Assembly (NCBI RefSeq): GCF_024138125.1 | Contig: NZ_CP099993.1 | Coordinates: 744,001-808,000 of the forward strand | Direction: 5' to 3' | Source of the DNA: Halorussus salilacus | GTDB lineage: Archaea; Halobacteriota; Halobacteria; Halobacteriales; Haladaptataceae | DNA length: 64,000 nucleotides | Part shown: piece after piece, positions 36,666-53,579 of the stretch | How the letters are laid out: every line of letters starts with the position of its first letter | Numbering within the stretch: the stretch's first letter is position 1 | Program-made: the position numbers and the translations under genes | The notes under the pieces: generated by a model | The model's database searches: none | What the model was told of the DNA's origin: nothing | Seen by the model: only the letters and a program-made list of their open reading frames with translations

Positions 36666-37925
36666 TCACGAGAAGTCCGAGAGGTTCGCCTGAAGTCCCG
36701 AGAGCATGTCGGACTTGCGCCGGAGGTCGCCGAGCGACACCGGGAGCTGGGGGACGAGCTGGCCGACCGCGCCGTGGAACGTCTCGGCCTCGCCGTATTC
36801 GCCGTCGAAGGCGTTCCGGACGCTCTCGCGGATCTGCCAGACGCCGACCGGGGCCCAGTAGTCGTCCGAGACCTCCCGGAGGACGAGACACTTCGCCTGC
36901 CGACCGACCGATTCGAGGTGTTCGAGGACCGCCAGCCGCGAGGCGTAGTACGCACCCGCGGTCTCGTCGACGTATCCGGTGCGGCCCTCGAACCCCTCCG
37001 AGGCGCTCGCCATCCACGTCTCGCCGTTGGGGTCCTGATTCCAGATACTGCCGGGCGCTTTCATCTCGACCAGTTCGAACTCCCACTGGCCGGGCGTCAG
37101 GACGACCCAGTAGCGGTTGCCGACGTACTCGTTGACCCAGACCTGGGTCTCGTCGACGCTCGGATTGGTTCGGATCTGGCCCCGGAGGAACTGCCCAATG
37201 GTGTCGTCGACCGCGGTTATCGACCACCGGGTGGGGACGAGCCGCCGGTTCTCGCCCTTGCCGAGCGCGCCCGCCGAGAGGATGTCGTTTATCTCGTAGA
37301 CGTCGAATCCGCGCCGGTAAAGGTAGGTCATCGCGCCCTGTGCCTGCCAGTCGTCGTCTTCGAGGGTCTTCTTCACCGGGCGCGGGACGTGGGGGTTCTC
37401 CGCGAGGTCGGCGGAGGTCGCGCGGGCCGACGGCCCAGTCGGGGTCGCGACGTCGTCGACCTCGAGGTCGAGGTCCAGCGAGTCCGAGAGTCCGATCTCG
37501 ACGTCGACCGGTCGGTCGGCGATGGCGACCTCGCGCTGGGTGCCGACGAAGCCGTCCCACGCGTCGTCGACGCGGGTCACGTCGGCGGAGTGGTTCGAGT
37601 TCAGCAGGCCGGTCCGGTACTGGAGGACGTTGTCGATGTCGAGGCCGCGCTCGTACCATTCGCTACTCGTGGCGAACTCCGAGGCGCGCTCTTCTTCCCC
37701 GACGGGCGAGAGGATGCCGGTCGAGACGTTGGGGTAGTCCGACCGGCCGACGAAGACGGAGGGAGAGGTGCTCCCGAACAGCGAATCGCCCTGCGCCACG
37801 TCGGCGAACCGGTCTTTCACCTCGTCGACGTAGTCGAGGATCTCGTAGGACTTCTCCTCGGCGAGGCGGCGCTTACGCTGGTCCTCGTCGGGTTCGAGAC
37901 CCTCGATGTACTCGTCGAGACGCAT
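36666..37925 (-). CDS. nreA: DNA repair protein NreA
   Basis: A 419-residue archaeal Nre-family protein. The N-terminus (MRLDEYIEGLEPDEDQR) and the conserved segment LFGSTSPSVFVGRSDYPNVS, TGILSP and YRTGLLNSNHSADV are characteristic. Nre proteins act with PCNA in DNA damage tolerance, notably against mitomycin-type crosslinks in Haloferax (known for the family). The C-terminus QANLSDFS fits a PIP-box (Q-x-x-L-x-x-F-x). There is no N-terminal zinc cluster visible, unlike some Nre members. Confidence 0.9.
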   Translation of the reverse strand: MRLDEYIEGLEPDEDQRKRRLAEEKSYEILDYVDEVKDRFADVAQGDSLFGSTSPSVFVGRSDYPNVSTGILSPVGEEERASEFATSSEWYERGLDIDNVLQYRTGLLNSNHSADVTRVDDAWDGFVGTQREVAIADRPVDVEIGLSDSLDLDLEVDDVATPTGPSARATSADLAENPHVPRPVKKTLEDDDWQAQGAMTYLYRRGFDVYEINDILSAGALGKGENRRLVPTRWSITAVDDTIGQFLRGQIRTNPSVDETQVWVNEYVGNRYWVVLTPGQWEFELVEMKAPGSIWNQDPNGETWMASASEGFEGRTGYVDETAGAYYASRLAVLEHLESVGRQAKCLVLREVSDDYWAPVGVWQIRESVRNAFDGEYGEAETFHGAVGQLVPQLPVSLGDLRRKSDMLSGLQANLSDFS

Positions 37926-38218
37926 TCGACCGGAGTTGGCACTCGAAGGGTTTGAACCTTTCTCGCAGTCGGAGAAGGTCCGAGGCTCGGTTGGGCTTGC
38001 AGGTGGTCCTCGGGTCTCCCGGAGCGGTCGGGCCACCGTTTCGCGGGCCGTTCCGGGGAGGCGGTCAGGTCACGCCACGGATTGGACGCGTCTCCGTACT
38101 TGAACCTACGGACCCGACGGAATCGTAATGCGGGAAATCGTGAACCGGAGAACCGCGATACGAATGCGGGAGGCTCCCCGAGGGGCGCGAGGGACCGCGA
38201 GAAGTCAGTAGAAGACGC

Positions 38219-46539: not shown

Positions 46540-47619
46540 TCAGATCAGGTCGTCTAGCTCGTCGTTGTGGAACTGCTCGGCCGGGTCGCGCTCGGGTTCG
46601 TCGGCCTGCTTGCTGGCCTGTTTCGCGCGCTCCATGAACTCCTCGACTCGGTCGGAGCGTTCGACCCCGCCGAGCAGGATGAGCGACGCGAGCCGACCGC
46701 TGTCGAGCGGGAAGTCCCCGCCCCGGACCTGCAGGCTCCCGGTCTCGTCTTCCATCCACTTTCGGGCGCGCTCGACGCCCTTCCGCGGGATGGCCTCGGG
46801 CTGGCCCGCCACGACCAGCAGGCCCGAGTCGGCCTCGACCGCGTTCGGCAGGCTGAGGTTGCTGAGGAGCGCCCGCCGGGTCGTCGAAGTCACGGTGTTG
46901 ATGTTCTCCTCGGCCTCGTCGCTGGCTTCCGCGCTCGCGAATCCGAGCGTGGCGATGCCGCCCGACCGGAGGGTGTTGATGACCTCGCTGGAGTCGACCA
47001 CGCTCTCGCCGACCCCCTCGACCGCCTCGCCCGAGGCGAACAGCAGACCGACACGCTGGGCGATGTTCTGGTTGATGGACTCGAACGCCTCGCCGACGCT
47101 CTCGCCCGAGGAGTGCCACGCGTCGTTGTCGATGAGCAGGGTCGCGTCGGCCTCCCGGACGAGGGTCATCAGCGACCGCCCGGCGTTGGCCTGATACATC
47201 GCGCCCTCGCCCCTGCCCGGCAGGATGCCGAGGCCGTAGACCGGAATCTCGTAGACGCGATTGAGTTCGCGCGCGAGGACGGGCGCGCCGCCCGACCCGG
47301 TGCCGCCGCCGAGTCCGGCGACGACGAAGATGGCCTCGGCCTCGGCGGTGATGCGGCCGTCGAGAGCGTCCATCACCTCGGTCGCGTCGCTCTGCATGAC
47401 CTCCGCGCCGAGTTCGTTGTCGCCGCCGACGCCGTGGCCCTTCACGCGGTCCTGACCGATCAGCACCGTGTCGAGGTCGAGCGACTGGAGGTCGGTCCTC
47501 GCGGAGTTGACCGCGAGCGCGCCTTTGACCGCGCCGAATCCCATCCGCTGGTCGTACTCGGCTAGCTTCTGAGTCAACTTCCCCCCGGCTTGTCCGACAC
47601 CAATCAGGACGACTTTCAT
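46540..47619 (-). CDS. cetZ: CetZ family tubulin-like GTPase
   Basis: A 359-residue tubulin-superfamily protein. The GTP-binding signature GGGTGSG is at residues 104-110, MKVVLIGVGQAGG at the start, and the nucleotide-binding NEDEL-like GGDNELGAEVM. Length and the GVGQAGGKL opening favour CetZ, the haloarchaeal cell-shape/motility tubulin group, rather than FtsZ. It is convergent with the FNT-Usp gene by two bases and divergent from the pilus cluster, which is 145 bases away. Which CetZ subtype cannot be told. Confidence 0.9.
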   Translation of the reverse strand: MKVVLIGVGQAGGKLTQKLAEYDQRMGFGAVKGALAVNSARTDLQSLDLDTVLIGQDRVKGHGVGGDNELGAEVMQSDATEVMDALDGRITAEAEAIFVVAGLGGGTGSGGAPVLARELNRVYEIPVYGLGILPGRGEGAMYQANAGRSLMTLVREADATLLIDNDAWHSSGESVGEAFESINQNIAQRVGLLFASGEAVEGVGESVVDSSEVINTLRSGGIATLGFASAEASDEAEENINTVTSTTRRALLSNLSLPNAVEADSGLLVVAGQPEAIPRKGVERARKWMEDETGSLQVRGGDFPLDSGRLASLILLGGVERSDRVEEFMERAKQASKQADEPERDPAEQFHNDELDDLI

Positions 47620-47733: not shown

Positions 47734-47764
47734 CTTAAATACCAGAACGGGACCACACCGGGCC
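47734..47764 (+). promoter_or_regulatory. Pilus-cluster promoter module, copy 1
   Basis: CTTAAATACC then AGAACGGGACCA directly before the ATG at 47765. Same module as 48796-48826 and 52702-52732. TTAAAT centre is 28 bases from the ATG, so the transcript starts at the ATG (leaderless). The extra fixed stretch ACGGGACCA lies between TATA box and start. Confidence 0.8.
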
Positions 47765-48247
47765 ATGTCCGAACCGGACGCACTGGACGAGCGACTCCGC
47801 GCCGTCGAGCGCGCGCTCACCGACGGCGACCGCGACCTGACCGACCTCAGAACCGGCGCGGAACTGACCCGCGAGGTCGAGGCGCTCTGCGAGCGCCTCG
47901 ACGACGCGGAGGACCGACTCGACGAACTCGACGCCGCGACGCAGGCGCTCAGGGGCTACGTCGGGAGCGTCCGGGCGGTCAACGAGTCTGTCGAGCGCCG
48001 GGCCGACGCCGCACTCGCGAAGGCCGAGTCGCTCGAAACCGACCGCCAGTCCCGTTCCGGCCGGGATTCGGGGGCCGACTCCGACTTCGCATCCGACTCC
48101 GACCCCGGACTCGCCCGCCACCCCGGTCCCACCTGCGACTGCGAGCGTCGCCGGGCCGACCCCTCGGAGTGGCCGGGGACCGAGGCCGAGACTGCGCCAG
48201 ACGAGTCTCCCGGCCTGCTCGCCAGACTCGCGGAGGCGCTGTCGTGA
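47765..48247 (+). CDS. Coiled-coil protein of the pilus/secretion cluster (DUF7310-like)
   Basis: A 160-residue protein. The first 95 residues are an alternating Glu/Arg/Leu coiled coil (LDERLRAVERALTD, ELTREVEALCERLDDAEDR), followed by a Ser/Asp-rich linker, a CDCERR pair and a short C-terminal helix (GLLARLAEALS). It starts the cluster and its GTGA overlap at 48244 couples it to the next gene. Family label DUF7310 from memory. It may help anchor the ATPase. Confidence 0.75.
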   Translation: MSEPDALDERLRAVERALTDGDRDLTDLRTGAELTREVEALCERLDDAEDRLDELDAATQALRGYVGSVRAVNESVERRADAALAKAESLETDRQSRSGRDSGADSDFASDSDPGLARHPGPTCDCERRRADPSEWPGTEAETAPDESPGLLARLAEALS

Positions 48248-48855
48248 TACGCACCGTCCTCGCCGTGGTGCTCGCCGCGGCGCTCGTGGGTGTCGCGACC
48301 CCCGCGCTCGACGCGGCGCGCACGACCCGGTCCGAGCGACTGACCGCGGCCGAACTCGGCCGGGTCGAGACCGCCGCGGAGGGTCTCGTCGCCGAGGAGA
48401 CCCCCGCAGGACCGGGCGGGCCGGGACCGCGGCGCACCCTCGAAATCGAGCTGCCGGGCGACTCGCCGACGACAGCACCGGTCGCGTACGTCGCGTTCGG
48501 CGGTCGGCCCGGGGAGTCGGTGGCCGACACCGGCCGCACCGACGCCGTCGCGTTCAGAGTCGCGGGCGGTCGCCACCACGTCCACCGGGTCGGGGTCGAC
48601 CTCCGAGTGGCGGGCCGGGACGAAGTGGCGGGCCGGGACCGAGTGACGGTCCGAAACGGCGGCGAGTCGCCCCCGCGGGGGCGACTCGCCGCCGACGCCC
48701 GTCCCCTCGTCCTCCGAGGCGGGGCCGCCTATCGGCTGGTCCTCCGGCTCCGCGAGGACGACGGTCGGCCGACCGTCGTCCTCGCCGCCCGAGAACTTAA
48801 ATCCGAGAACGGGACCACCCCGGCACATGCGAGACCTGCTGGCGCGACTGCGTGA
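48244..48855 (+). CDS. Membrane-anchored/pseudopilin-like protein of the cluster (DUF7311-like)
   Basis: A 203-residue protein from GTG 48244 (GTGA overlap with the previous stop). A hydrophobic N-terminal helix (TVLAVVLAAALVGVATPAL) behind a short basic start, then a mixed beta region. Residues near 140 (NGGESPPRGRLAADAR) are encoded by a perfect 38-base palindrome, 48657-48694. It overlaps the ATPase gene by 29 bases; the promoter of that gene is within its 3' end. Predicted exported with an N-terminal anchor. Confidence 0.7.
   Translation: MIRTVLAVVLAAALVGVATPALDAARTTRSERLTAAELGRVETAAEGLVAEETPAGPGGPGPRRTLEIELPGDSPTTAPVAYVAFGGRPGESVADTGRTDAVAFRVAGGRHHVHRVGVDLRVAGRDEVAGRDRVTVRNGGESPPRGRLAADARPLVLRGGAAYRLVLRLREDDGRPTVVLAARELKSENGTTPAHARPAGATA
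48657..48694. repeat. 38-bp perfect palindrome in coding sequence
   Basis: CGGCGGCGAGTCGCCCCCG and its exact reverse complement with no loop, inside the DUF7311-like gene. In frame it encodes a Gly/Ser/Pro/Arg linker. As RNA or cruciform DNA it would be very stable. Confidence 0.92.
48796..48826 (+). promoter_or_regulatory. Pilus-cluster promoter module, copy 2
   Basis: CTTAAATCC (48796-48804) and GAGAACGGGACCA (48805-48817), followed by the ATG at 48827; 28 bases from TATA centre to ATG. It lies inside the 3' end of the preceding CDS. Confidence 0.8.
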
Positions 48856-50716
48856 GACCGACGACCCGGCGTGCGCGTGCGAACCGACGTTCGAGTCCGA
48901 CCGGCTCGTGCTCGACGCGACCGACTGCCCCGGGAGCGGCGACCTCGCGGCGTCCCCGGACTGCCGAGCCACCGCGGTCGCGGCGCTCGCCGACAGGAGC
49001 GCCGACGCGGTCCTGACCCGGACGGAGGGCGTCGAGCGCGCCTACGAGGGCGAGGCCGCGACCGTGCTCGTCGCGGCCGGGCGGTTCGCCGAGCGGGTCG
49101 CCTTCTACGACGAGCGACTCGCCGACCGCGCCGAGCGCGACCCGCTGGACGCGGCCCGCGCCGCGGTCGGGCGCGCAGGGCCGGTCGGCGACATCGTCGC
49201 GGAGACCGGACTGGCCGAGGTCGCTCGCGACGCCGGGAGCGACGACGACGCGCTCCGGGCGTTCGTCGGGCCGCCGATGGCCCGGTCCCGGGTCGCCGCG
49301 CGACCCCCTCCCGACGCGGCGCTCGCCGAGTCGCGGTCGCTGTCGAGCGGCGCGACCGTCCGAATCTACGACGGCCCGGACCGCGCGCTGCGGACCTACC
49401 ACCTCGAACCGGTCGAAGCCACCTTCGACGCCGCCGCGCTGGAGACGCTGGCGCGCGCCCACGACCTGCTCGCGGAGGGGGTCGTCTCGGGCGAGTCCGA
49501 CCGCGCGCCGGGGCGGGCGGTCCGCCGGGTGGCCGATTCCGACCAGCGGGTCGAGGACCTCGCGGCGGTCCTCGGCAAGCACACCCGCGGGTACGGCGTC
49601 CTCGCCGACCTGTTCGCCGACCCCGCGGTGTCGGACGTGTTCGCGACCGCCCCGGTCGGGTCGAACCCGCTCCGGGTCACCGTCGACGGCGAGCGCATGC
49701 GGACCAACGTCCGACTCACCGAGGCGGGCGCGGAGACGCTGGCCTCGCGGGTCCGGCGCGCGAGCGGCCGAGCGTTCTCGCGGGCCGCGCCCACCCTCGC
49801 CGCGACCGCCGAGACCGGCGCGGGAGCCGTGCGTGTCGCGGGCGTCACCGACCCGGTCTGCGACGGGCCGGGGTTCGCGTTCCGCGCCCGCGAGGCGACG
49901 CCGTGGACCCTGCCCGCGCTGGTCGAGAACGGGACCGTCCCCGCCGACGCCGCGGCCCTGCTCTCGCTCGCCGTCGAGCGCGCGGCCGCGGGACTCGTCG
50001 CCGGGGCCCGCGGTGCGGGCAAGACCACCGCCCTCGGCGCGCTCCTGTGGGAACTGCCCGCCGCGGTCCGGACCGTGGTCATCGAGGACACCCCCGAACT
50101 CCCGGTCGGCCCGCTCCAGTCCCGGGGCCGGGACGTCCAACCGCTGCGGACCGCGACCGACGACGGCACCGGTCTCTCGCCCTCGGACGCGCTCCGGACC
50201 GCGCTCCGACTCGGGGAGGGCGCGCTGGTCGTCGGGGAGGTCCGGGGCGAGGAGGCCGCGGTCCTCTACGAGGCGATGCGGGTCGGCGCGAGCGGCGACG
50301 CCGTCCTCGGCACCATCCACGGCGACGGCGGCGCGGCGGTCCGCGAGCGCGTGGTCTCGGACCTCGGCGTCCCGGCCTCGTCGTTCGCGGTGACCGACCT
50401 CGTCGCGAGCCTCGAAACGACGGCGACCCCGGAGGGCGAGCGCCGCCGGGTCCGGGCGGTCGAGGAGGTCGTCGACGGCGACCGCTTCGAGCCCCTCTTC
50501 GAGGTCCGGGACGACGCCCTCCGACCCACCGGCCGGATCGAGCGCGGGGAGAGCCGCCTCGTCGCGTCGCTCGCCGACCCCGACGAGCGCTACGCCGACG
50601 TTCGCGAGACGCTCGCCGACCGCGAGACCCTGCTCGACCGACTCGCCCGCGAAGGCCGGACGGACCCGGCCGACGTGACGAGGGCCTACGCCGAACGCGA
50701 CCGGAGGAGCGCGTGA
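48827..50716 (+). CDS. Type II/IV secretion-system ATPase (archaeal pilus motor, PilB/GspE-like)
   Basis: A 629-residue cytoplasmic hexameric ATPase that powers assembly of a type IV pilus-like structure. Walker A GARGAGKTT is at 393-401, the Asp box IEDTPELPV and Walker B-like GALVVGEVRGEEA follow, plus the His-box LGTIHGDG. A cysteine pair at CACEPTF and CPGSG near the N-terminus may bind zinc. It has its own promoter module and a GTGA overlap with the membrane-platform gene downstream. It is divergent in sequence from the main PilB3-type proteins, so it probably drives a separate structure. Confidence 0.92.
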   Translation: MRDLLARLRETDDPACACEPTFESDRLVLDATDCPGSGDLAASPDCRATAVAALADRSADAVLTRTEGVERAYEGEAATVLVAAGRFAERVAFYDERLADRAERDPLDAARAAVGRAGPVGDIVAETGLAEVARDAGSDDDALRAFVGPPMARSRVAARPPPDAALAESRSLSSGATVRIYDGPDRALRTYHLEPVEATFDAAALETLARAHDLLAEGVVSGESDRAPGRAVRRVADSDQRVEDLAAVLGKHTRGYGVLADLFADPAVSDVFATAPVGSNPLRVTVDGERMRTNVRLTEAGAETLASRVRRASGRAFSRAAPTLAATAETGAGAVRVAGVTDPVCDGPGFAFRAREATPWTLPALVENGTVPADAAALLSLAVERAAAGLVAGARGAGKTTALGALLWELPAAVRTVVIEDTPELPVGPLQSRGRDVQPLRTATDDGTGLSPSDALRTALRLGEGALVVGEVRGEEAAVLYEAMRVGASGDAVLGTIHGDGGAAVRERVVSDLGVPASSFAVTDLVASLETTATPEGERRRVRAVEEVVDGDRFEPLFEVRDDALRPTGRIERGESRLVASLADPDERYADVRETLADRETLLDRLAREGRTDPADVTRAYAERDRRSA

Positions 50717-52395
50717 GTCCCCTCGAACGACTCACTCGGCTCTATCCGTGGGCGGTCTCCCCGGACGACGACCTCGTCCGGGCGCTGGCGTACCTCGACG
50801 CCGAGGCCGACGCCGAGACCGCGGTCCGGGCGGGCTACGGGCTCGCACTCCTCGTCGCGCTCCTCGGTGTTCCCGCGCTGGCGGTCGCGCCCACGCGGGC
50901 GCGACCGCCAGCGCTCGCGGGACTGCTCGCGGTCGCGCTCGGGGCCGTCCACGCGGCCGAACGCGGGCCCGTCGCGCTGGCGACCGCCCGACGGACCGCG
51001 GCGCTTGGTGCCGCCCCCGCGCTGGTCGCCCGGCTGGTCCTCCGGATGCGGATCGAACCCGCCAGCGAGCGCGCCGCGGCGTTCGCCGCCGACGCCGACG
51101 GGGAACTCGCCGACAGCCTCCGGGATCACGTCCGGCGAGCGGCCGGGACCCCGCGGTCGGGGCTCGCGGCGTTCGGCGCGACGTGGGCCGACTGGAACCC
51201 GCCGTTGCGTCGGTCGGTCCTGCTCGTCGTGGCCGCGGCCGACGCGCCCGCCGGAGAGCGCAATCGGACCCTCGACCGGGCGATGGACGCCGTCCTCGAC
51301 GGCAACCGCGACCGGATGGCGGCGTTCGCCGACAGCGTTCGGGGACCGACGACGGGGGTGTACGCGTTCGGCGTCCTGCTCCCGCTCGCGCTGGTCGCGG
51401 TCCTCCCGGCCGCCCGAATCGCGGGCGTTCCCGTCTCGATACCCGTGCTGGTCGCGGTCTACGACCTGCTCCTGCCCGCCGCGCTGGTCGCGGCGGGCGC
51501 GTGGTTGCTCGTGCGCCGCCCCGCCGCGTTCCCGCCGCCGCGGGTGTCCCGGGACCACCCCGACGTGCCCGACCGGAACTGGCCCGCGATTGCGGTGGGC
51601 GGCCTCGCGGGACTCCTCGCTCTCGGAGCCACCGTCCCGCTTCCGGCGTGGACGCGCTGGCTCGCGGTTCCGGGAGCCGCGCTCGGCGCGGCGCTGGTCG
51701 CGCGCTACCGCCCGGTCAAACTCGTCCGGGACGACGCCCGCCGCGTCGAGGCCAACCTGACCGACGCGCTCTACCTCGTGGGGCGGCGGGTGAGCGACGG
51801 CGCCGCGGTCGAGTCGGCGGTCGCCGATTCGGCGCCGGAGGTCGCGGGCCGGACCGGCGAGACGCTCGCGGAGGCCGCGGGCGTCCAGCGGCGGCTTCGA
51901 GTGGGCGTGCGCGAGGCGTTCCTCGGCGAGCACGGCGCGCTCGCCGACGTTCCCAGCCCGCAGGCCCGGACCGTGGCCGCCCTGCTCGCGCTGGCCGCCC
52001 GCGAGGGGCGGCCAGCGGGTCGGGCCGTGGTGTCGATGGCCGACCACGTCGACGACCTCCGGCGGGTCGAGCGCGAGGCCCGCCGGGAACTCGCCAGCGT
52101 GACCGGGACGCTCCGGAACACCGCCGCAATCTTCGGCCCGCTGGTCGGAGGCGCGACGGTCGCGCTCGCCGACGGGATGGCCTCCGGGGCGCTGGGCGAA
52201 CCCTTCCCGACCGCGCCGCTCGGTCTCGCAGTCGGCGGGTACGTGCTGGTGCTGGCCGCGATTCTGACCGCGCTCGCGACCGGACTGGAGCGCGGGTTCG
52301 ACCGCTCGCTCGTGGGGTATCGCGTGGGACTGGCGCTGGTCTGTGCGGTCGGGTCGTTCCTCGCGGGGTTCGCGGGGGCCGGACTCGCGGCCTGA
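50713..52395 (+). CDS. Type II secretion F-family membrane platform protein (TadC/PilC-like)
   Basis: A 560-residue membrane protein from GTG 50713. Two T2SSF-like halves are visible: LADSLRDHVRRAAGTPRSGL, and LTDALYLVGRRVSDGAAVES with EAFLGEHGALADVPSPQ, flanked by clusters of helices (LLVALLGVPALAV, ALVAVLPAARIAG, GGLAGLLALGATV, GYVLVLAAILTAL). It pairs with the upstream ATPase. A perfect 18-base-arm palindrome lies at 50875-50914 in its coding sequence. It ends the ATPase operon; a 337-base gap follows. Confidence 0.88.
   Translation: MSPLERLTRLYPWAVSPDDDLVRALAYLDAEADAETAVRAGYGLALLVALLGVPALAVAPTRARPPALAGLLAVALGAVHAAERGPVALATARRTAALGAAPALVARLVLRMRIEPASERAAAFAADADGELADSLRDHVRRAAGTPRSGLAAFGATWADWNPPLRRSVLLVVAAADAPAGERNRTLDRAMDAVLDGNRDRMAAFADSVRGPTTGVYAFGVLLPLALVAVLPAARIAGVPVSIPVLVAVYDLLLPAALVAAGAWLLVRRPAAFPPPRVSRDHPDVPDRNWPAIAVGGLAGLLALGATVPLPAWTRWLAVPGAALGAALVARYRPVKLVRDDARRVEANLTDALYLVGRRVSDGAAVESAVADSAPEVAGRTGETLAEAAGVQRRLRVGVREAFLGEHGALADVPSPQARTVAALLALAAREGRPAGRAVVSMADHVDDLRRVEREARRELASVTGTLRNTAAIFGPLVGGATVALADGMASGALGEPFPTAPLGLAVGGYVLVLAAILTALATGLERGFDRSLVGYRVGLALVCAVGSFLAGFAGAGLAA
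50875..50914. repeat. Long palindrome inside the secretion membrane-protein gene
   Basis: GCGCTGGCGGTCGCGCCC and GGGCGCGACCGCCAGCGC around ACGC, 18-base perfect arms. In frame it encodes ALAVAPTRARPPALA. Confidence 0.92.
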
Positions 52396-52489
52396 GCGCG
52401 ACCGTCGGCTCCCCCGCTTTCTTCGAAACTGCCGACCGTTCCAAGCGGCGCGCGGTGGTTCGGCGCGCGGTTTGCGCCGAACCATCACT

Positions 52490-52580
52490 CGCGCGAGGGA
52501 GGCGGCCGCCTCGCGCGGTCGCCGAGGCTGGGGAGGCGCGAGGCCCGCGGTCGCGGTGCTGTGCGGTGCGGTCGCGGTCC
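52490..52580 (+). repeat. Degenerate piece of the dispersed hairpin repeat
   Basis: Contains CGCGAGGGAG, CTGGGGAGGCGCGAGGCC and CCGCGGTCGCGGTGCTGTGC in the order seen in the full copies but shortened and diverged. It lies in the gene-free gap 52396-52732 between the secretion membrane-platform gene and the DUF7283-like gene; the rest of that gap shows inverted repeats and the P3 promoter but no gene. Confidence 0.6.
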
Positions 52581-52701
52581 TTCTAGGTGACGACGATAGC
52601 TAGCTTCGTCGTAGCGTTCTCCTCTGGAAGCGAGACCCGAGAGTCAACCGCCAGCACCCCGGAGACCCGGAACCTCGACCGCGACCCACCCCGGCTGAAG
52701 G

Positions 52702-52732
52702 TTTAAATCCGAGGACGGGACCAACCCGTGCC
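52702..52732 (+). promoter_or_regulatory. Pilus-cluster promoter module, copy 3
   Basis: TTTAAATCC (52702-52710) and GAGGACGGGACCA (52711-52723), then the ATG at 52733. Spacing of 28 bases from TATA centre equals the other two copies exactly. Confidence 0.8.
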
Positions 52733-53194
52733 ATGTTCGACGCACCAGTCGAGACGTGGTACCTCTGGGTCGGCCTCGCGCTCGCGAGCAGCGCCGCCCT
52801 CGGCCTCGCGGTCTCGCTCCCCCGCGCACCCCCGCCGGACGCCGCGGGCGTCGCCGACACCGTGGACTCGGTCGCCGCGAGCGACCGCGCCGCGACCGCG
52901 GTCCACCCGGTGTCGGCCGAGGTCAGAATCGGCCCCTACCGCGTGTGGCTCCGCGACGACGGCGCGACCGGCCACGCGACGCTCGCCTACGGTCCCGTCA
53001 CGCCCGTCCGTCGCGGGACCGCGCTGTGGGACGTGCTCCGCGGGACGCCGCCCGAGTCGGCGTTCGGGTCGCCCGGGGCGTTCCGGGACGCCGCGGCCGA
53101 CGCGCGCGACCGACCCCCGGCGTGGCGGACCACCGGAGAACTGACCGTCCGGGCGGTCTCGTGGGAGGGCGTGGATGTCACCCTCGTCGGGTAG
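52733..53194 (+). CDS. Membrane-anchored protein of the cluster (DUF7283-like)
   Basis: A 153-residue protein: N-terminal helix (TWYLWVGLALASSAALGLAV), Ala/Asp-rich linker, then a beta-rich domain with VSAEVRIGPYRVWLRDDG and ending VRAVSWEGVDVTLVG. It overlaps the next gene by 20 bases. It starts a second transcription unit of the cluster through the copy-3 promoter. Possible minor-pilin-like or accessory component; label DUF7283 from memory. Confidence 0.75.
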   Translation: MFDAPVETWYLWVGLALASSAALGLAVSLPRAPPPDAAGVADTVDSVAASDRAATAVHPVSAEVRIGPYRVWLRDDGATGHATLAYGPVTPVRRGTALWDVLRGTPPESAFGSPGAFRDAAADARDRPPAWRTTGELTVRAVSWEGVDVTLVG

Positions 53195-53579
53195 GGCGCA
53201 GGTCGAGCCGCTCGCGGCGCTGGTGGCCGTCTTCGCCGTCGGACTCGCGGTGTCGGCGTACGCTGGGGTCCTCGATTCGGCCCTCCCGACGCCCGACCGG
53301 AACCTCGCCGACCCGACCGTCGAGCGCGCCGAGCGCGCGGTGACCGACGCCGGGGTGGTCGCCCCCGACGAACTCGCCGGGGGACTCGACGCCGGTCCCG
53401 ACGGCTACCGGCTGAACCTCACCCTCGTCGCAGGCGACCGGACGTGGCACGCGGGACCGCGAGCGCCGCCGACCGTCGATTCCGCCGCCGCCAGCGACGC
53501 CGCCGAGGTAACCGTCAGCGTCCGAGTCGCACCCGGCCGGGTGCGACCCGGACGCCTCCGCGCGGAGGTGTGGCCGTGA
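53175..53579 (+). CDS. Pilin-like protein of the cluster (DUF7285-like)
   Basis: A 134-residue protein whose N-terminus SSGRAQVEPLAALVAVFAVG has the archaeal prepilin layout (short basic leader, Gly-Arg-Ala-Gln, then a hydrophobic helix). The mature part is beta-rich (YRLNLTLVAGDRTWHAG, AAEVTVSVRVAPGR). A 22-base palindrome at 53526-53547 is in its 3' part. Overlap with the DUF7283-like gene suggests co-translation. Label DUF7285 from memory. Confidence 0.75.
   Translation: MSPSSGRAQVEPLAALVAVFAVGLAVSAYAGVLDSALPTPDRNLADPTVERAERAVTDAGVVAPDELAGGLDAGPDGYRLNLTLVAGDRTWHAGPRAPPTVDSAAASDAAEVTVSVRVAPGRVRPGRLRAEVWP
53526..53547. repeat. 22-bp palindrome in coding sequence
   Basis: GTCGCACCCGG-CCGGGTGCGAC, perfect, encoding the RVAPGRVRP part of the DUF7285-like protein. 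Confidence 0.85.

Follow-up and report, generated by a model that had tools for sequence, protein, structure and literature searches.

A fixed-register promoter module between TATA box and leaderless start of haloarchaeal pilus, DNA-transport and small-RNA genes: probable cis-element of a DNA-uptake regulon

The promoter module described here was found in a pilus gene cluster of Halorussus salilacus (genome handle G000, the genome under study). The stretch of DNA analysed, hereafter the window, comprises 64,000 nucleotides (G000:C1:744001-808000); features of the cluster, numbered from the first letter of the window, are:

47735..47755, + strand: promoter module 1 (TATA box TTAAAT and spacer box), 30.5 bits; drives the DUF7310 gene
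47765..48247, + strand: DUF7310 coiled-coil gene, leaderless; PF23991, E 1e-31
48244..48855, + strand: DUF7311 gene; PF23993, E 1e-40
48797..48817, + strand: promoter module 2, 37.5 bits; drives the T2SSE/TadA-like pilus ATPase
48827..50716, + strand: type II/IV secretion (pilus assembly) ATPase, leaderless; PF00437, E 1.6e-16; TadA family match, under the cut-off of that model
50713..52395, + strand: probable PilC-like membrane platform; PF00482 (T2SSF), E 0.0025, a weak match under the curated cut-off
52703..52723, + strand: promoter module 3, 42.7 bits; drives the DUF7283 gene
52733..53194, + strand: DUF7283 gene, leaderless; PF23954, E 5e-51
53175..53579, + strand: DUF7285 gene; PF23956
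54179..57331, + strand: DUF7286 gene, 1050 amino acids; PF23957

The three boxes read TTAAATACCAGAACGGGACCA (47735-47755), TTAAATCCGAGAACGGGACCA (48797-48817) and TTAAATCCGAGGACGGGACCA (52703-52723). The distance from the first T of TTAAAT-N6-ACGGGACCA to the A of ATG was 30 nt in 3 of 3 pilus-cluster genes (ATG at 47765, 48827 and 52733), and the transcript would start at +30. An identical module at these three genes, 28 bases from box centre to ATG, had been reported in the first-pass annotation and was confirmed (27.5 nt from the centre); its spacer had been spelled A(G)GACGGGACCA, which was corrected to AG[A/G]ACGGGACCA, the likeness among the boxes running on toward the ATG. A spacing of 28 nt is as such ordinary for a leaderless TATA box. 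Module 1 is sited in the divergent intergenic region between cetZ and the pilus cluster, module 2 is an internal promoter within the 3' end of the DUF7311 open reading frame. The CetZ tubulin gene (46540-47619, - strand) is divergent from the cluster, and the intergenic region with module 1 is common to both.

Significance of the module: The short core GACGGGACCA was rejected as the signal; at ≤2 mismatches it gave 139 matches in the window (158 expected), i.e., chance level, and significance therefore resides in the whole module at fixed register. The 21-mer TTAAATNCNAGNACGGGACCA at ≤3 mismatches gave 23 sites genome-wide (reversed-pattern control, 0). A strict pattern with a fixed GCCRTG end was too strict (2 sites in 1 of 21 genomes) and was replaced by mismatch searches and a sequence model. 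The null sample consisted of 20 stretches of 20 kb across the genome plus the window (464 kb), in which 306 genes were called by GC bias at third codon positions; each gene start was scanned over a stretch beginning 150 nt before it and ending 60 nt within the gene, with a weight matrix built on alignment A1 (53 sites; of an initial 54, row L018 matched weakly and was dropped). Scores above 0 were obtained at 4 of the 306 gene starts, all four being module sites; the next best was -3.0. Among the 59 genes of this sample with a TATA box and a leaderless-like start, the spacer between TATA box and start codon was without general conservation, and the three pilus genes scored 40-54 (next, -3.0). 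A generic leaderless promoter is ruled out by the 59-gene spacer profile and the 306-gene null, which bear out the earlier claim that the module exceeds ordinary basal promoters. The stretch conserved in 54 sites comprises a BRE-like (B recognition element-like) CGAA, TTAAAT and MCGARGMCGGGACCAACCCGG, and conservation drops off just past the start point; the element of ca. 20-25 bp fills the space between TATA box and leaderless start with the consensus CGAANGT-TTAAAT-MCGAAGMCGGGACCAACCCGGCCC-RTG. The box of the tctA promoter carries CGGGACCA.

The strict register to the start point, the co-conserved TATA and BRE-like positions and the GC-rich melting region would also suit a core-promoter variant working without a dedicated regulator, in which a TFB paralogue would recognise the GC-rich start region, or that region would respond to supercoiling or nucleotide supply. 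This is regarded as quite improbable: the base-specific conservation (GGGACCA) exceeds what composition explains, and the box is confined to a functionally narrow gene set, 56 other leaderless-like TATA genes of the sample being without it.

Targets in the genome: The genome-wide search for the module that the first-pass annotation had suggested was carried out with a sequence-only model (R1) and gave 31 sites of at least 22.5 bits, followed by 5 at 15-17 bits (top, 17.2) and then noise; most of the 31 were in the training set of R1, and it is the score gap, not the E-value, that carries weight. Of the 31 sites, 13 stand before leaderless protein genes, 9 before class I RNAs and 5 before class II RNAs (see below); 4 are other sites, namely a distal site before RPA (41 bits), a second VapB gene and two without assigned target. 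The leaderless protein targets are: pilus side, DUF7310, pilus ATPase, DUF7283, Pilin_N and DUF7382 (which we infer to be pilin-like); DNA side, a TctA-family membrane protein, a MinD-like ATPase and a HerA/DUF87-like ATPase (domain match, E 1.6e-5); nucleases, NucS_N + Zn_ribbon_Top1, Cas4/DUF83-like and PLD (NucT-like matches under cut-off); remainder, a VapB antitoxin and DUF6735. The single PF01970 (TctA) protein of the genome is the module-driven one. One cis-element was thus found before pilus, DNA-transport and DNA-processing genes; we judge 11 of the 13 leaderless protein genes to belong with pili, DNA transport or DNA processing. Many genes do carry the same sequence, the outcome that the first-pass annotation had named as telling against its proposal, but with 11 of 13 fitting one theme they are not unrelated. 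Two of the five weak sites precede RNAs, one of class II (in the window) and one of class I; two others lie before an XPD-like helicase and, distally, before Mre11-Rad50, and one is without assigned target; the helicase and Mre11-Rad50 sites have 15-16 bits.

The NucS-like, Cas4-like and HerA-like targets, the extra RPA promoter and the weak sites before Mre11-Rad50 and the XPD-like helicase recall a DNA-damage regulon, in which an ultraviolet or damage response would induce pili, DNA exchange and repair genes jointly, like Ups/Ced of Sulfolobales, whose genes respond to DNA damage with strong induction (PMC11868833). We consider such a regulon unlikely: the sites at core genes of repair and recombination are distal or low-scoring where there are any, and the best conserved target, TctA, is known from transformation, not repair. 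RPA, Mre11 and the XPD-like helicase were tried as core targets and rejected, their sites being merely distal or weak.

Module sites upstream of VapB antitoxin genes were observed at L017 (G000:C1:341654, - strand), L025 (2447490, - strand) and L015 (2059428, + strand); one is leaderless, one lies at 77 nt and one at 680 nt after a class II RNA. At L021 (G000:C1:1266080-1266161) two modules stand back to back, TATA boxes <20 nt apart, and drive the HerA-like and DUF7382 genes divergently; the same arrangement was seen in genome G146 (L213).

Conservation across haloarchaea: R1 matches at E ≤ 0.01 were obtained in 95 of 146 genomes of the order; matches per genome: 11-38 in the 14 genomes of the genus Halorussus listed, 7-25 in several genera of other families, 0-5 in many others. 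Seven genomes of other genera gave 111 matches, of which 72 were inspected. Among the inspected sites, TctA was a target in 6 of the 7 genomes (G146, G092, G110, G090, G104, G066); DUF7283, DUF7310 or the pilus ATPase in 4 (G146, G020, G090, G066); MinD-like operons in 4 (G110, G066, G020, G104), laid out as MinD followed by a RadA/KaiC-like gene or as DUF7857 followed by MinD; NucS-like genes in 4, Cas4-like in 3, DUF7382 in 3, PLD in 2 and HerA-like in 2.

Conservation at orthologues was also scored at loci that were picked by protein, blind to the box, against control windows. For TctA, 79 of 80 named loci outscored all 160 control windows (exception, Halorhabdus salina, L259), at least 2 of the 80 repeating module sequences from training. 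The pilus ATPase gave 24 of 30 loci above all 60 controls, or 26 of 30 when the upstream DUF7310 region was included and compared with that region's own 60 controls; HerA-like, 18 of 28 above all 56 controls; MinD-like, 17 of 30 above all 120 controls; a few Halorussus loci in these three tests overlap the training set. The element is conserved at orthologues across lineages, with lineage variants (GGGACCA in Halorussus, GCGGCCA in Halorubrum); the Halorubrum box is CCGAAGCCGCGGCCA, register unchanged. Many of the module-negative pilus ATPase, HerA-like and MinD-like genes carry a degenerate version in register.

Presence of the pilus ATPase and HerA-like genes was recorded in 59 genomes: 27 have both, 28 neither and 4 are discordant (counts ignore phylogeny). 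The two genes are ca. 1.4 kb apart in G064 (G064:C2:21671-25961) and G035 (G035:C1:3350768-3355064), where a MinD-like gene lies at most ca. 10 kb from the HerA-like gene and all three are within about 10-14 kb. The pilus ATPase genes near HerA-like in G064 and G035 carry in-frame stops (one TGA; one TAG and one TAA).

Recent duplication of control sequence, one of the two origins proposed in the first-pass annotation, was not supported: the sites have differing flanks, and orthologues of distant genera retain the element with lineage-specific changes, the orthologous sites in distant families (TctA, pilus ATPase and HerA-like tests) ruling against it. The many copies, several of them at RNA genes of a single family, would suit a promoter cassette that was mobile or had recently been duplicated and was spread by copying; since the likeness fades just past the start point, flanks differ and the same orthologues in distant families carry sites, this idea is largely refuted and can be given next to no credence.

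Small RNAs started by the module: The 282 unique sites from all loci (a set biased by the protein-seeded loci) are followed by an open frame of at least 55 codons (204 sites), by a start codon, one codon and a stop (44), by GGAC (16) or by other sequence (18). The features of the window that belong here are:

38071..38111, - strand: weaker fourth module, 17.2 bits; its start point is that of the class II RNA
37993..38073, - strand: class II pseudoknot RNA, start GTGACCTGA, end CTGCAAGCCC; R2 (see below) 52.8 bits; upstream of nreA
36666..37925, - strand: nreA (Archaeal Nre); PF04894, E 4e-95; downstream of the class II RNA

The nreA gene was considered as a module target and not counted; the nearby site drives the class II RNA instead. 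Class II RNA (44 sites) is ca. 80 nt long; it opens with GTGACCTGA, has two helices that cross and closes with a sequence like CTGTTCGCC. It forms an H-type pseudoknot: in 37 aligned sequences (alignment A3; 7 long or odd ones of the 44 left out), 15 of 15 pairs had changes on both sides, the cells paired amounting to 93.4% (helix P1) and 64.8% (helix P2); 0 of 500 shuffles reached the observed values, and sliding the partner lowered the paired fraction from 78% to 35-47%. A class II model made without the promoter (R2) gave 7, 15, 33 and 4 copies in four genomes; 30 of these 59 matches were fetched, and the box stood at exact register in 30 of 30 (150 control windows, maximum -25.4), 6 of 6 among the only six loci that had not earlier been selected by promoter.

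Of 78 sites that lack a long leaderless frame, 44 have the two-codon frame (ca. 2% expected from base composition, by hand estimate), namely L186, L204, L191 and 41 more. It begins with GTG or ATG; the stop is TGA in 42, TAA in 1 and TAG in 1, and the middle codon is ACC in 23. Given TGA in 42 of 44 and ACC in 23, an RNA motif and a translated frame are equally likely; perhaps the frame neutralises leaderless translation of an RNA that begins with a start codon.

Class I RNA, GGACG...CAGTCCGACTA...GGCTGAGCC, is longer (64-250 nt) than class II and variable, with conserved ends and a highly variable GC-rich middle hairpin (L011, L016, L026, L027, L028, L088 and others); about nine strong-site copies are present in this genome, two of them divergent (L028, L087). 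The structural evidence is weaker than for class II, and a structure is probable: RNAalifold on 16 sequences gave 16 pairs, of which 6 had changed on both sides, and a variable middle. Comparison of class I and class II, in two sets of 13 and 10 loci, with the Rfam covariance models gave 4 matches in total, none near gathering score. In two genomes (L028, L049) class I RNA is directly upstream of a CutA-like gene.

Natural transformation of Methanococcus maripaludis requires type IV pili, the TctA-family protein MMJJ_13030, the OB-fold protein MMJJ_13020, the MinD/ParA-like MMJJ_11080 with its operon partner MMJJ_11090, an exported thermonuclease and the archaeosortase ArtE, as found by a transformation screen and deletions; in Methanoculleus thermophilus a TctA homologue is essential for transformation, and TctA has been proposed as the DNA transporter, archaea being without ComEC (PMC10133366). 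Haloarchaea have been reported to take up plasmid DNA (PMC6759562). The box targets include, at the family level only, archaeal transformation essentials (TctA family, MinD-like, type IV pilus), and four M. maripaludis gene kinds recur among them: pili, TctA, MinD with a partner gene and an exported nuclease (of another family). Because the targets match transformation gene kinds and plasmid uptake by haloarchaea has been reported, the module probably serves, on the sequence evidence, as cis-element of a DNA-uptake (competence) regulon in haloarchaea. The element, its register, targets and conservation and the pseudoknot are results computed from sequence, on which this reading builds.

The module is most likely read by one conserved DNA-binding regulator, still putative. 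The shared regulator proposed from the three pilus genes is kept, as the inferred best explanation (or else a shared initiation factor); its restriction to the pilus cluster is not, ca. 31 promoters being concerned genome-wide. An archaeal regulator bound at the start region normally blocks TFB or polymerase. Repression relieved by a signal is thought somewhat likelier than an activator or a dedicated initiation factor, because the GC-rich module covers the melting and start region at fixed register. On induction, type IV pili would catch DNA, the exported PLD nuclease would process it, and the TctA-family protein (perhaps the HerA-like ATPase too) would carry it through the membrane; MinD-like ATPases may position the uptake machinery, and the NucS-like and Cas4-like nucleases, in Halorussus with the extra RPA promoter, may handle single-stranded DNA inside the cell. 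The two small RNA families would be switched on together with the uptake genes.

Extracellular DNA serves haloarchaea as a supply of phosphorus, and they distinguish DNA according to its source (PMC8443641), and an exported nuclease would fit scavenging of DNA for nutrition, with uptake genes under control of phosphate or nutrient supply and recombination incidental. This is held to be very unlikely, as the single-strand-processing nucleases in the regulon suggest protection or recombination, not digestion, and no phosphate or nucleotide transport genes were seen among the targets of this genome.

Several points weigh against assignment of the module to a competence regulon. The VapB antitoxin and DUF6735 targets and the 14 RNA sites are of no obvious service to DNA uptake. 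The module failed to outscore all controls at 6 of the 30 pilus ATPase genes, 10 of the 28 HerA-like and 13 of the 30 MinD-like genes, and the pilus ATPase and HerA-like genes are themselves absent in about half of the 59 genomes. R1 was trained mainly on Halorussus sites, and own-genome scores are partly high by construction; orthology of haloarchaeal TctA and MMJJ_13030 is taken from the common Pfam family, with no tree behind it. The repair side is thin, because RPA, Mre11 and the XPD-like helicase are linked to the module by distal or weak sites, those of Mre11 and the helicase having 15-16 bits. Among the module targets of the genome no transcription factor was observed; no search aimed at the regulator was made.

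Literature searches returned no paper recognised as describing the box, a haloarchaeal competence regulon or control of the uptake state in haloarchaea. Tentatively, and judging from genomes, the module may represent the first cis-regulatory code of an archaeal competence regulon: an ancestral haloarchaeal switch for a TctA-based import machine, pilus and nucleases, together with two new small-RNA families, one of them the H-type pseudoknot with its opening two-codon GTG-NNN-stop frame, that might tune or guard the uptake state. Archaeal DNA import is poorly known, the gene list coming from a few methanogens; the box would offer a genome-readable list of the haloarchaeal uptake machinery and points to TctA, MinD, HerA-like, PLD, NucS-like and Cas4-like proteins as one pathway. 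It can be used as bait for the regulator and may predict which haloarchaea transform, and when. The pseudoknot RNAs are a structured family absent from Rfam, with up to 33 model matches in one genome.

Comparison with known systems: In bacterial competence regulons (ComK, sigma-X/ComX, Sxy-CRP) one element coordinates pilus, DNA entry and single-strand DNA genes, and in some streptococci small RNAs are co-regulated with competence; the haloarchaeal element differs in its place between TATA box and start of an archaeal promoter, with no ComEC expected. Archaeal repressor operators likewise lie between TATA box and start site, the position of the haloarchaeal box, which is distinguished from them by its fixed register to the start codon and its conservation across Halobacteria at several orthologous targets. 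To our knowledge, no TATA-to-start box has been described for Ups/Ced of Sulfolobales, where CedB is HerA-like. Ups/Ced resembles the box regulon in combining pili and DNA import with a HerA/VirB4-like ATPase under common control, and differs in being crenarchaeal and DNA-damage-induced and in having other membrane proteins (PMC11868833). The M. maripaludis transformation set was compiled by genetics in a methanogen, and the excerpt of that report describes no cis-element or regulon (PMC10133366). Its OB-fold protein MMJJ_13020 and ArtE have no counterpart identified among the haloarchaeal targets, and its exported nuclease is a thermonuclease whereas that of haloarchaea is of PLD type. Common to both are the type IV pilus, the TctA-family protein, the MinD/ParA-like protein with its partner and an exported nuclease (Fonseca et al. 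2023, PMC10133366).

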